From Thiosulfatimonas sediminis (GTDB taxonomy: Bacteria > Pseudomonadota > Gammaproteobacteria > Thiomicrospirales > Thiomicrospiraceae), in assembly GCF_011398355.1 (NCBI RefSeq), contig NZ_AP021889.1:806001-870000 (forward strand): a stretch of DNA of 64,000 nucleotides, read 5' to 3'. Position numbers and translations under genes: made by a program. The notes under the pieces were generated by a model that made no database searches, was not told the DNA's origin, and was given only the letters and a program-made list of their open reading frames with translations. This document shows, piece by piece, positions 15,343 through 29,704 of this stretch. The number at the start of each line of letters is the position of its first letter. Position 1 is the first letter of the stretch.

Positions 15343-15369
15343 TTATAGCGTGTTAAACTGAATGTCTTG
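15343..15369 (-). other. Displaced native 3' end of lipA
   Basis: Read on the minus strand, these bases encode Q-D-I-Q-F-N-T-L and a TAA stop. They are exactly in the frame that lipA would have if the transposon and one copy of TCTTG were removed. The relic ends 16 bases before the hslO start. It shows that lipA ran directly into hslO before insertion. Confidence 0.85.
15365..15369. repeat. Target site duplication, left copy (TCTTG)
   Basis: TCTTG here abuts the left transposon end and is identical to 28692-28696 at the right end. Five bases is the duplication length of Tn7-family insertion. Confidence 0.85.
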
Positions 15370-15493
15370 TATGACTTCCATAATTAATTTGTACTGGAAG
15401 TGCTCTTTTCTGTCTTTTTCTACAAAATAATTTTGTACTGAACTACAATCGAATTAGCAAGGTAACTTTTATACAAAATTAAACTGTACTGGA
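15370..15493 (+). repeat. Left transposon end with three TnsB-type sites
   Basis: Three copies of a motif resembling TACAAAATTAATTTGTACTG occur in the same orientation at about 15379-15397, 15421-15441 and 15472-15493, spaced by 20-35 bases. Tn7 left-end TnsB sites (ACAAAATAG...AACTGG) have the same shape and direction. The innermost site ends 9 bases before the tnsA ATG, so TnsB binding would probably repress tnsABC, as is known for Tn7. The outermost bases are TATGAC instead of the expected TGTG. Confidence 0.8.
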
Positions 15494-15502
15494 TTACATA
15501 AT

Positions 15503-16156
15503 ATGCCTGTCAGACGTATCCCGAAAAGCTATCGTAATGTCACCGGAATTTACGCTTCCAGCAAGTCAATTGATTCGGCTATGTTTGAATCCACTCTGGA
15601 GCGCGATTTTATCACACTTCTTGAATTCGATTCCCATGTGCTGGAGTTTGAAGTTCAGCCTGTAAAGATAGAGTGGACGGATCAAAACGGTAAGCGCCAC
15701 CGCTATTTTCCTGACGTCATTTTTAAGCGTAAAACCGAATATGGAGTTGAAACCGTTTTGGTCGAAGTGAAGTATCGTTCCGACTTGAAGAAAGATTGGG
15801 ATGAGCTAAAGCCAAAGCTGAAAGCGGGTTTGCACTATGCCAAGCAGCAAGATTGGAAGTTTAAGATTATGAGCGAAATCGAGATTCGTACAGTATTGCA
15901 GAAAAACGCGAAATTTCTTCAGCCATTTATTCGGCGCGGTGCGGATAGAGAAGGTGACATGGATCTGCTCGATAATAAACTCCGCGAACTGAAAAATTCA
16001 ACGCCGGCTCAATTATTGAGTGAATTAGTGCAAAGTGATTGGGATAAGGCTGCCTTGTTACCGACTCTGTGGTATTTGATTGGCACTCGCCAAATAATAT
16101 GCGATTTGGAGAACAGTCCGTTGAATATGAACACGCCGATTCATTGGAAAGCTTAG
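15503..16156 (+). CDS. tnsA: TnsA transposon 5'-end endonuclease
   Basis: A 217-residue TnsA-type restriction-like nuclease, which cuts the 5' strand at each transposon end so that Tn7 moves by cut-and-paste. Catalytic residues are visible: Glu in MFESTLERDF, Asp in YFPDVIF, and the ExK motif in LVEVKYRSDL. It is shorter than Tn7 TnsA (273 residues); the C-terminal TnsC-contact region is short. It is the first gene of the plus-strand operon, with tnsB starting ten bases after it. Confidence 0.92.
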   Translation: MPVRRIPKSYRNVTGIYASSKSIDSAMFESTLERDFITLLEFDSHVLEFEVQPVKIEWTDQNGKRHRYFPDVIFKRKTEYGVETVLVEVKYRSDLKKDWDELKPKLKAGLHYAKQQDWKFKIMSEIEIRTVLQKNAKFLQPFIRRGADREGDMDLLDNKLRELKNSTPAQLLSELVQSDWDKAALLPTLWYLIGTRQIICDLENSPLNMNTPIHWKA

Positions 16157-16165
16157 GGTTTGGAT

Positions 16166-26954: not shown

Positions 26955-26971
26955 GAAGTGAAACCTTACAA

Positions 26972-28621
26972 TTAAACAGAAATTTTTTGAATGATGACTG
27001 ATTCTAGTTTGTCGATAGAATTCCATGTGTGAAGAACTCTTTCAAAATCTAAAGACAGTCCAGAAACGACAGAGCCTTTGGTTCCATCCCACACACCTTT
27101 GTAGCGGGTTAAGTTCTTCATAATTGTATCGAGAGTTTGGTCGCCGATTATTTTTTTGCTTTTGATTAATCCAACGGTGCATTCGTTTTTTCGACGTTGT
27201 TGGATATCAATCCAACAGTAGTGATTACCATTGTGCTTAATATCGACGGCAATATAGCTTCTTCGGGTTTTGCTAGCGGATTCCAAATAAGCCCATTGCC
27301 TTCTTGTACTGGCTTCAGACAGAGGGACAACGTCAATTCTTCTAATTTTTATCTTCATGCCATCACTGGCAAGTTGTTTTACCGCTTCCTGAAGCATTTC
27401 CAAGTCTGCGCCGACGCCTTTGCTTCGATTGATTTTAGCCTGTTGGTTGGTCGAGTCTTTGCCGTAGTTGCCTTGACCAGTTCCTAGACCGTCGGCTTCC
27501 GGCGCTTTAGGTTTGTTTGGAGGGGATTTATAGCGGTTGTATTCTTTGCTCTCCGGTTTGATGATTTCTTTATTTTCTAAAAAATCGAATTGAGCCGATT
27601 GGATGAGAATATTTTGAATTGGAAGGTTTTTGTGCGTTTCCTTTTCACTATTCAGCTCTTGACCATCAATTTCCTTTTCATCGTTTCTGTTTAGGTTTCG
27701 GTCGTAGGTTTTCTTTTCTTCCTGCTCCATATCTGTTTCGGAATCGGCCTTTGTCGAATTATTATCTCGGTCGACTTGAAGCTGAGAGAAAGGGAATGGA
27801 TGTGAGCACTTCAGTAATTGAAGTATTAGGTATCGTGGGCGTTCTTTAGTTCCAATTTGTAAGCCTTTTGCCTTCCAGCGAGTTGTGCCAATAAAAGGAA
27901 TAGCGCATTCGAAGAAGCCGGATTTATTCGAGTCTAAGTTTCTGAGTAAGCTTTTATGAATTTCTTGAACGCCATGCTTAGCGTTTTCGTCGAAAAGGAT
28001 TCTGCCTATTGTCCAAGCGTCAATATCGGAAAATCGCTGCCTTAAATGAACAATAGCTCTGTCTAATTCTGAATCAAAACCGCATTTTTCATAATTAACA
28101 ATATCGTTAAGGTCATAACTGTATTCTCCCCAAAATGCACTATGGGCTAGGTCAGTAGAATGGCAATAATAAAAGCGGGCAACTTCGGAGGCTGGGATGA
28201 TAATTCCGTAAGGGTCTTGGTTATATTCAATTGCAAGGCAACTCGATGAGGCAAATTCTTTAGGAATATCTCGAATGGTAGGTGGTATGGCATATTTTCC
28301 GGCTTCGATTTTATCCCATGCTTCGATGATACGAATGCAATCCGGAGTGATATTGATCTTGGGTAAGATGAAATTTTCAATTTGGTCAGGTTCGTAAATA
28401 GTGAGCCGTTTATCTCTCCAATTAGAACCGATTTTTAGAAGTGGAAGTTGGCCGACTCCGATTTCGATTGTTCGATCACCATGCTTAGAGCGAATGCCTA
28501 CTTCAATTAGTGGCTCGGACGGTACTTGAGGATTTCTGGTGATCCGTCCGTGCCAGATGATTGTCCAGTTTCCATTGGGAAACTCTTTTATAGGCGGTGT
28601 GTTTTGAAAGATTTCGGCCAT
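26972..28621 (-). CDS. tnsE: TnsE-like target-selection protein
   Basis: A 549-residue protein, close to Tn7 TnsE (538 residues). Regions that line up by eye with TnsE are VGQLPLLK near the N-terminus, IIIPASEVARFYYCHSTDLA, DIDAWTIGRILFDENAKHGV, a mid-protein acidic linker (about 290-370), and a C-terminal half around GVGADLEMLQEAVKQL and ...YKGVWDGTKGSVVSG...DFERVLHTWNSI. TnsE directs Tn7 to replicating DNA through the sliding clamp. Its ATG (28621) lies four bases from the innermost right-end TnsB-type site. It is placed alone at the opposite end from tnsABC and heads an operon with the defence-like cargo. The assignment is by pattern memory and length, not alignment. Confidence 0.7.
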   Translation of the reverse strand: MAEIFQNTPPIKEFPNGNWTIIWHGRITRNPQVPSEPLIEVGIRSKHGDRTIEIGVGQLPLLKIGSNWRDKRLTIYEPDQIENFILPKINITPDCIRIIEAWDKIEAGKYAIPPTIRDIPKEFASSSCLAIEYNQDPYGIIIPASEVARFYYCHSTDLAHSAFWGEYSYDLNDIVNYEKCGFDSELDRAIVHLRQRFSDIDAWTIGRILFDENAKHGVQEIHKSLLRNLDSNKSGFFECAIPFIGTTRWKAKGLQIGTKERPRYLILQLLKCSHPFPFSQLQVDRDNNSTKADSETDMEQEEKKTYDRNLNRNDEKEIDGQELNSEKETHKNLPIQNILIQSAQFDFLENKEIIKPESKEYNRYKSPPNKPKAPEADGLGTGQGNYGKDSTNQQAKINRSKGVGADLEMLQEAVKQLASDGMKIKIRRIDVVPLSEASTRRQWAYLESASKTRRSYIAVDIKHNGNHYCWIDIQQRRKNECTVGLIKSKKIIGDQTLDTIMKNLTRYKGVWDGTKGSVVSGLSLDFERVLHTWNSIDKLESVIIQKISV

Positions 28622-28624
28622 TCT

Positions 28625-28691
28625 CAGTACAAATTAATTTTGTAGAATCCAAAATAATGTTGTTCAGTCCAAATTAATGTTGAAACTCACA
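28625..28691 (-). repeat. Right transposon end with three abutting TnsB-type sites
   Basis: Three related motifs lie side by side at 28665-28684, 28645-28663 and 28625-28644 in the opposite orientation to the left-end sites. The terminus, read inward, is TGTGAG. Close packing of sites is the known style of the Tn7 right end. The outermost site contains the TGA that now ends lipA, and the innermost abuts the tnsE start, so TnsB could also control this promoter. Confidence 0.8.
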
Positions 28692-29704
28692 TCTTGTTTG
28701 TCACTGCTTTTGGCTTGTAAATCGGCGTGGTACGAACTGCGAACCATTGGGCCAGCGGCGACGTTTTCAAAGCCCATTTGATAACCGGCGTCTTCTATTT
28801 TTTTGAACTCTTCAGGGCTCCAGTATTTTTTCACGGCTAAGTGAAAGCTGCTTGGCTGTAAATACTGGCCAACGGTGAGCATTTGCACATCGTGGGCACG
28901 TAAATCATGCATCACTTGCAGCAGTTCATCCATGGTTTCCCCTAAACCGACCATTAACCCAGATTTAGTTTTAACTTCGGGGTGCAGTGCTTTAAAGCGT
29001 TTGAGTAGATCCAAAGAGGATTGATAATCGGCACCAGGACGCGCCTCTTCGTAGAGGCGTGGGATGGTTTCCAAATTATGGTTCAGCACATCTGGTGGTT
29101 GCTGGTTCAATGTTTCCAGAGCGACCGTCAAGCGACCACGAAAATCCGGTACAAGCGTTTCAATTTTGGTTTGCGGTGATGCGCTACGAATGGCGGCGAC
29201 ACAGTCGTTAAAATGTTGGGCGCCACCATCACGTAAGTCATCGCGGTCAACGGAGGTTATGACAATGTATTTCAAGCCCATCGCTTTTACGGTGCGTGCC
29301 AGATGCGCCGGTTCTTCTTGATTTAACGGTTTTGGTCGACCGTGCGTAACATCGCAAAATGGGCATTTACGCGTGCAAATATCGCCCATAATCATAAACG
29401 TAGCGGTGCCGTGACCGAAACATTCCGCAAGATTGGGGCAAGAGGCTTCTTCACAGACGCTGTGTAGGCCTTGTTCGCGCATGATGTTTTTGAGTTCCCG
29501 AATGCGGTGAATGTCTTTTGCTTTTGGGAGTTGTGCTTTAATCCAGCGCGGTTTTTTCAATTTTGGCGCTTCTGGATCTGGGCGTAATTTCAGCGATTTG
29601 GTTTTGTACTGACCCTTTGGCATGGCTGCATTACGCTCTTTGAGATTACTGAGGTTGCCAATTTGCTCCAGTTGAATCTCTTGTCGCTGCGGGGGTTGTG
29701 ACAT
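28664..29704 (-). CDS. lipA: Lipoyl synthase with a transposon-encoded C-terminus
   Basis: A 346-residue radical-SAM enzyme that inserts two sulfurs into octanoyl groups to make lipoate. The auxiliary-cluster cysteines ([12 protein letters not shown]) and the radical-[11 protein letters not shown] are intact. The last residues V-S-F-N-I-N-L-D and the TGA lie within the right end of the Tn7-like element (28664-28690). The native tail D-I-Q-F-N-T-L plus TAA is still present at 15343-15369. The enzyme core is untouched and the replaced tail is only eight residues, so activity is probably kept. Confidence 0.95.
28692..28696. repeat. Target site duplication, right copy (TCTTG)
   Basis: TCTTG directly follows the transposon right end and matches 15365-15369. 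It lies in the codons for Gln-Asp near the end of lipA. Confidence 0.85.

Follow-up and report, generated by a model that had tools for sequence, protein, structure and literature searches.

Some integrases of phages and integrative elements restore the 3' terminus of the gene into which their mobile DNA inserts. For Tn7, a conserved coding stretch directs homing to the vicinity of a conserved gene's 3' end: the terminal 36 bp of glmS, encoding the active-site region, are bound by TnsD, and insertion occurs ~25 bp beyond them (PMC2918618). In the parE-homing branch of the I-F3 CRISPR-associated transposons (Tn7017), a TniQ/TnsD protein picks a conserved chromosomal gene (PMC11406308). Elements of the Tn6022/AbaR group have genes for TnsA, TnsB, a TniB-type TnsC, and a small TniQ, together with a remote TnsE gene that lies toward the far end and is encoded on the other strand (PMC10293859), and inactivate their target gene comM. 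Here, a Tn7-like element was analyzed in a 64,000-nucleotide stretch of DNA (hereafter, the window; positions 806,001 to 870,000 of contig NZ_AP021889.1) from the complete 2.72-Mb genome of Thiosulfatimonas sediminis. This element is inserted in the last codons of lipA, next to hslO, and recurs at the same place in other genomes. We consider it likely that such elements, as relatives of the comM-homing Tn6022 group, form a lipA-homing branch of Tn7-like transposons in which TniQ itself is the target selector.

Like Tn7, the lipA elements are found near a conserved coding stretch at the 3' end of a conserved gene; unlike Tn7, they usually land in the last codons and replace them, have a small TniQ and not a long TnsD, and carry the TnsE-like gene apart from the tns operon. 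They may share with Tn7017 the choice of a conserved chromosomal gene by a TniQ-type protein, but the lipA element has a single TniQ and no CRISPR system. As with the integrases mentioned above, mobile DNA provides the 3' end of the gene entered; in that case, however, restoration comes from sequence identity in the recombination core, whereas the tail provided by the lipA elements is new sequence. With the Tn6022/AbaR group, the lipA elements share the gene set and the far-end, opposite-strand position of the TnsE-like gene, and in comM elements with both flanks in view (e.g., G060, G051) the TnsE end is likewise the one turned toward the 5' portion of the target. In contrast to that group, they home to the 3' end of lipA, the target gene is kept open, and no TnsF was found.

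No publication that names lipA as an attachment gene for the Tn7 family was found, in agreement with an earlier annotation of the window made from the letters alone (the sequence-only reading). The gene is absent from the main texts of PMC10293859 and PMC11406308, PMC8649781 was also consulted, and PMC13101487 and PMC9120033 have no bearing on the question; the supplement tables, outside the scope of this survey, may hold an entry.

Insertion of a Tn7-Like Element Into lipA

The window element has genes for TnsA, TnsB, TnsC, and TniQ, the last with both the fold and the domain of the TniQ family. It is flanked by a 5-bp target site duplication (TSD), and each of its ends bears an array of TnsB-type sites (Table 1). 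The sequence-only reading, which had placed a Tn7-like element with a TCTTG duplication in the 3' end of lipA, is confirmed by the sequence itself, and Pfam matches bear out the assignments of TnsA, TnsB, TniB-type TnsC, TniQ, and LipA. Starting from hslO, the gene order is tnsA, tnsB, tnsC, tniQ, cargo, and a gene for a TnsE-like protein, located on the opposite strand and adjoining lipA. With up to 3 mismatches, the pattern ACAANATWAWTTTGTACTG has 7 matches in the window versus 0.35 expected, a number reached in 0 of 100 shuffles. Six of the 7 matches are the end sites, three per end; the seventh overlaps an end site on the opposite strand.

In the window lipA, the eight codons for VSFNINLD and the following TGA are element sequence, as had been read directly from the right transposon end, and so is the third base of the preceding Asp codon (all tails are quoted here up to their stop codons). 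The native tail is stranded beside hslO, in frame with the TSD, and reads CAA GAC ATT CAG TTT AAC ACG CTA TAA (QDIQFNTL). Two details of the sequence-only reading can be made more precise: the insertion lies eight codons before the original stop when the stop itself is counted, and the new TGA (28664-28666) overlaps the end of the outermost TnsB-type site. Empty sites directly followed by hslO had been predicted for relatives and were found in two genomes of the same genus (G020 and G026, 88% LipA identity), where hslO was recognized by eye from its first codons and the lipA tail KQDIQFNAL matches the relic. LipA is present in 31 of the 32 genomes of the genus, and the lipA tail was read in 30 of these 31; other element-free tails differ, e.g., KELAQ and KETVQTAS.

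Distribution and Precision of lipA Insertions

TniQ was searched in 142 genomes and matched in 18. Among the 13 genomes with examined sites, the element was located at lipA in five (the window genome G000, G013, G024, G036, and G057) and in comM in eight (G060, G051, G021, G023, G030, G042, G059, and G046); G001, G045, G047, G086, and G136, as well as second matches in G045 and G051, were left out of the site examination. Full relatives of the window element lie between hslO and lipA in G013, G036, and G057 (TniQ identity 59-78%), and a decayed one in G024. The G057 element is near-identical to that of Hydrogenovibrio sp. JE_KL2. A scan of the whole collection with a four-sequence TniQ alignment returned 10 loci. 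Three are those of G013, G036, and G057; the other seven, with 39-43% identity, belong to Pseudoalteromonas, an Alteromonadaceae isolate, and Rheinheimera. In six of these seven, the TnsE-like gene directly adjoins lipA on the TniQ contig. The seventh, from P. arctica (G540), is split between contigs, and the beginning of a TnsE-like gene comes after its lipA, so that all 10 loci trace to lipA, this one as a remnant. The P. arctica lipA ends in GKEVK, with the transposon tip partly gone and the element remnant behind it (L089, ~1364-1450), and looks as if the native tail had been restored over the tip.

The TnsE-like gene was found in 7 genomes of a 398-genome phylum sample, three times at lipA (G000, G486, and G525) and four times in comM (G356, G523, G147, and G374); further TniQ genes of G523, G374, G147, and G525 were left out of the site examination. 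Among 400 plasmid records, no close TniQ (at least 60% identity) was found; 12 records among the matches listed had at least 80% coverage. In total, 13 lipA insertions and the P. arctica remnant were found in several families of the class, one of them (G013) at the same codon as in the window. The search for the same element at lipA 3' ends that the sequence-only reading had suggested thus supports lipA as an attachment gene.

In all 13 insertions, the distance from the HADxQA codons to the element is 14-20 nt, a 7-nt range (six insertions at 14 nt, two at 15, one at 17, and two each at 19 and 20), and the TnsE-like end is oriented toward lipA. Insertion is therefore site-specific and oriented at a conserved gene, as for other Tn7-like elements. 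A matching 5-bp TSD was found in nine (G000, G013, G036, G057, G534, G535, G537, G538, and G539). A chance preference for lipA was rejected on the basis of the whole-collection scan, the traced loci, and the 7-nt range.

Rebuilt LipA C-Termini

The stop codon of lipA is supplied by the element in 11 of the 13 insertions. In the other two, the element lies just past an intact lipA stop: by 1 nt in G486 and by 4 nt in G057 (L056, ~14390-14420), where it sits exactly at the start codon of hslO, which is contained in the duplicated ATGAA. The proposed use of the transposon end as the lipA terminus is thus common and not obligatory. The rebuilt tails are VSFNINLD in G000, G013, and G024, whose tip sequences are identical; VSYNVKRD in G535, G537, and G538; CELQH in G036; VNFNPSSN in G534; VNSKAK in G536; VNYNAK in G539; and CVENSK in G525. 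The relic tails, read by eye, are QNIQFNAL in G013, a tail ending in Ala in G036, EVK in G534, G535, G537, and G538, and EVS in G539.

The sequence-only reading had also pointed to an Asp-x-x-Phe-Asn pattern kept in the new tail. The V[NS][FY]N stretch is encoded by the conserved transposon tip TGTGA[AG]TT. Since the same tip also follows native EVK and EVS tails, which lack FN, selection for this pattern was rejected, and the resemblance between VSFN and IQFN is probably due to chance.

LipA is complete through the conserved RSSYHADxQA region in all 13 cases. The window genome has GcvH, a single LipA, and no match to the LplA family TIGR00545, the one ligase family searched, so LipA is probably needed there as the sole source of lipoate. 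LipA presumably keeps working with its variable tail replaced, and the insertion would be harmless to the host.

Relation to the Tn6022 Group

The six complete or nearly complete lipA elements have in common only the genes for TnsA, TnsB, TnsC, a small TniQ, and the far-end TnsE-like protein. All 12 other related elements with examined sites are located in comM, the Tn6022 site, where none of the lipA elements lies. The TnsE-like protein of the window is homologous (E-value 3e-32) to a protein of the G356 comM element, which in turn matches TnsE_C at 3.8e-12. A direct TnsE_C match was absent from the window protein and from all ten scanned relatives except G356; in an alignment of four TnsE-like members, the domain was found in one, weakly (0.0067). 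The predicted structure has a pLDDT of 35, and a PDB search with the TnsE-like alignment gave 0 matches. Through this indirect link, the far-end gene, encoded on the opposite strand, would correspond to the TnsE gene of the Tn6022 group. This homology and placement, together with the comM-inserted relatives, identify the lipA elements as relatives of Tn6022.

In the TniQ tree, the lipA-type proteins form one clade (99/97) apart from the comM type, whereas the TnsB and TnsC trees do not separate the two targets (2 and 3 changes to lipA, respectively). TnsF was found by profile search in 5 of 12 comM genomes and in none of 26 lipA-element loci; the model was built from three comM elements that are themselves among the five matching genomes. 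Seven comM elements had no match (L091, L092, L093, L095, L058, L112, and L116), so the model may miss divergent forms or these elements also lack TnsF; they may home by TniQ alone or with a divergent partner.

Proposed Selection of lipA

In the proposed mechanism, TniQ would read the DNA for the near-invariant RSSYHAD motif near the 3' end of lipA, after which, as homology suggests, TnsA and TnsB would act with TnsC to insert the element. The sequences themselves show the landing point 14-20 nt past the HADxQA codons, the 5-bp TSD, and the TnsE-like end toward lipA. As the motif lies so near the stop, insertion falls in or just after the last codons, usually with loss of the last one to seven, and the tip gives a few codons and a stop, as seen in the sequences. 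Insertion occurs 23-29 nt past the HAD codons, which would be a spacing similar to that of Tn7 if TniQ reads the RSSYHAD codons. The TnsE-like protein may provide a second, non-lipA route to mobile DNA, and the genes between TniQ and TnsE are exchangeable cargo. That a small TniQ (~320-350 aa), without TnsF and without a long extension, is the lone sequence-specific selector of lipA, and that TnsABC with TniQ is a minimal protein-guided insertion system whose end is a swappable 3' terminus for a gene of the essential type, is a view that we favor only slightly. RNA-guided targeting was rejected: six elements have only the genes for TnsA, TnsB, TnsC, TniQ, and the TnsE-like protein in common; with their junctions placed exactly, the longest exact match of the last 200 nt of lipA to the element is 9-12 nt, as in shuffles; and no Cas effector was found among the window element proteins.

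It is possible, though unlikely, that another protein recognizes lipA and TniQ is an adaptor, as in Tn6022, where TnsF, encoded next to tniQ, binds comM and docks on TniQ (PMC10293859). The ten aligned TniQ proteins have only 320-353 aa and no long extension, and the role could fall to a host DNA-binding protein or to the TnsE-like protein, whose gene is the only other one common to the six elements. However, no TnsF match was found at the lipA-element loci, and the TnsE-like proteins of G486 and G525 have 25-28% identity to that of the window and are no closer to it than the protein of the comM element G356 (25%); thus, TnsE does not track the target, and TniQ does. A single old insertion inherited by descent is very improbable. 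G000 and G013 share the insertion codon and may represent one event, and the tip common to these two and G024 would fit inheritance, but the offsets differ, the elements occur in several families, and genomes with empty sites are scattered through that genus and family (G020, G026, G060, and others). The differing offsets and interspersed empty sites led us to reject one inherited insertion for the whole set.

Replacement of the LipA tail is, with moderate confidence, a by-product: given a set distance from the recognition site, any AT-rich tip soon gives a stop, and the tip would be unselected as a coding end. This explanation opposes only a selected coding tip and not homing to lipA. Whatever the frame, read-through extends over at most 6-10 codons in eight of the nine distinct tips and over 19 in the ninth (G525); shuffled tips are equally short at rates of 1-15% for each of the eight and 54% for G525. 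Tip by tip, stops in all three frames are therefore not beyond chance, and selection on the tip is not claimed. The two insertions beyond the lipA stop also agree with a by-product. Against it, the other 11 use the tip as the lipA terminus with LipA intact through HADxQA, and the tip is conserved, although binding of TnsB alone may account for this. The ratio of nonsynonymous to synonymous substitutions (dN/dS) was uninformative, with dS saturated in the five comparisons with G000 or G013.

Several observations weigh against homing to lipA by TniQ. The spacing varies over 14-20 nt and is not a single fixed value. No matching TSD was found in G024, with a small loss at the junction, in G536, where the hslO-side end seems by eye to be displaced beside an apparent transposase open reading frame, or in G486 and G525, the left ends of which were not found within ~2.7 kb; in the last three genomes, the boundary was set by the TGTG tip alone. 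The 13 insertions are not all proven independent, as the codon is common to G000 and G013 and one tip and TSD to G535, G537, and G538, and the TnsB and TnsC trees do not strictly exclude a single origin of the lipA group. Sites in 5 of the 18 TniQ-bearing genomes are outside the examined set. A small TniQ is taken as a sign of another selector (Faure 2023, PMC10293859), and TniQ N-terminal scores also split the lipA and comM groups, so that the difference does not point to the C-terminal region in particular. Finally, the lipA site of G060 is empty, but its comM element, of the Tn6022 type, contains the remnant of a lipA element (L058:1218-2855 and 8940-9350): a TnsE gene of the lipA type, with 63% identity and one internal stop, and the C-terminal fragment of a lipA-type TniQ.

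Features and Cargo of the Window Element

Table 1. Positions of the window element, its ends, its genes, and the adjoining lipA parts.
Feature	Position	Strand	Basis
Tn7-like element, 13,322 bp, between hslO and lipA	15370..28691		TSD and TnsB-type sites
TSD TCTTG, hslO side	15365..15369		Read from sequence
TSD TCTTG, lipA side	28692..28696		Read from sequence
Three TnsB-type sites, hslO-side end	15378-15396, 15422-15440, 15473-15491	+	Pattern ACAANATWAWTTTGTACTG
Three TnsB-type sites, lipA-side end	28625-28643, 28645-28663, 28665-28683	-	Pattern ACAANATWAWTTTGTACTG
TnsA, 217 aa	15503..16156	+	PF08722 2.1e-19, PF08721 9.9e-10
TnsB transposase, 628 aa	16160..18046	+	PF09299 (Mu-transpos_C) 2.7e-9; PADLOC TnsB 6e-52
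TnsC, TniB type, 300 aa	18043..18945	+	PF05621 1e-71
TniQ, 352 aa, proposed lipA selector	18948..20006	+	PF06527 1.4e-30; tree grouping by target
Cargo: C5 cytosine methyltransferase	20007..21182	+	PF00145 2.6e-63
Cargo: Response_reg_2 protein, 611 aa	21215..23050	-	PF19192 8.3e-26
Cargo: protein with two HATPase domains and HEF_HK, 1145 aa	23031..26468	-	PF19191, PF02518, PF13589
Cargo: Vsr-type endonuclease	26508..27026	-	PF03852 7e-31
TnsE-like protein, 549 aa, conserved at lipA-proximal end	26972..28621	-	Homology to G356 comM-element protein
Transposon tip encoding new LipA C-terminus VSFNINLD and TGA	28664..28691	-	Sequence reading
lipA with rebuilt tail, 346 aa	28664..29704	-	TIGR00510 3.8e-129
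Stranded native lipA tail QDIQFNTL with stop, TSD copy included	15343..15369	-	Matches empty-site tails of G020/G026

The cargo (20007-27026) resembles a methylase/Vsr/GHKL-ATPase type of system, which we take to be a restriction system. A related methylase, Vsr, and HATPase protein were found in the G057 element, and an apparently different restriction set occupies the same place in G013. The vsr and TnsE-like genes of the window overlap by 55 bp (26972-27026), so that the cargo meets the TnsE end without a gap. The hslO-side terminus of the window copy is TATGAC (15370-15375), a change also present in G024; read by eye, this terminus starts with TGTG in G013, G036, G057, G534, G535, G537, G538, and G539. 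As terminal TG...CA is usually invariant in this transposon family, the window copy may be poorly mobile.

Significance

These results add a new attachment gene to the short list known for Tn7-like elements and indicate that the Tn6022 group, which inactivates its target gene, has a related branch with a site at which the host gene is spared. The lipA and comM elements are a clean natural pair for mapping target determinants in TniQ. If TniQ acts alone, this would contradict the working rule by which elements with a small TniQ depend on a selector of another kind. The homing site is present from sulfur oxidizers to marine Alteromonadales and could serve for safe genome insertion.

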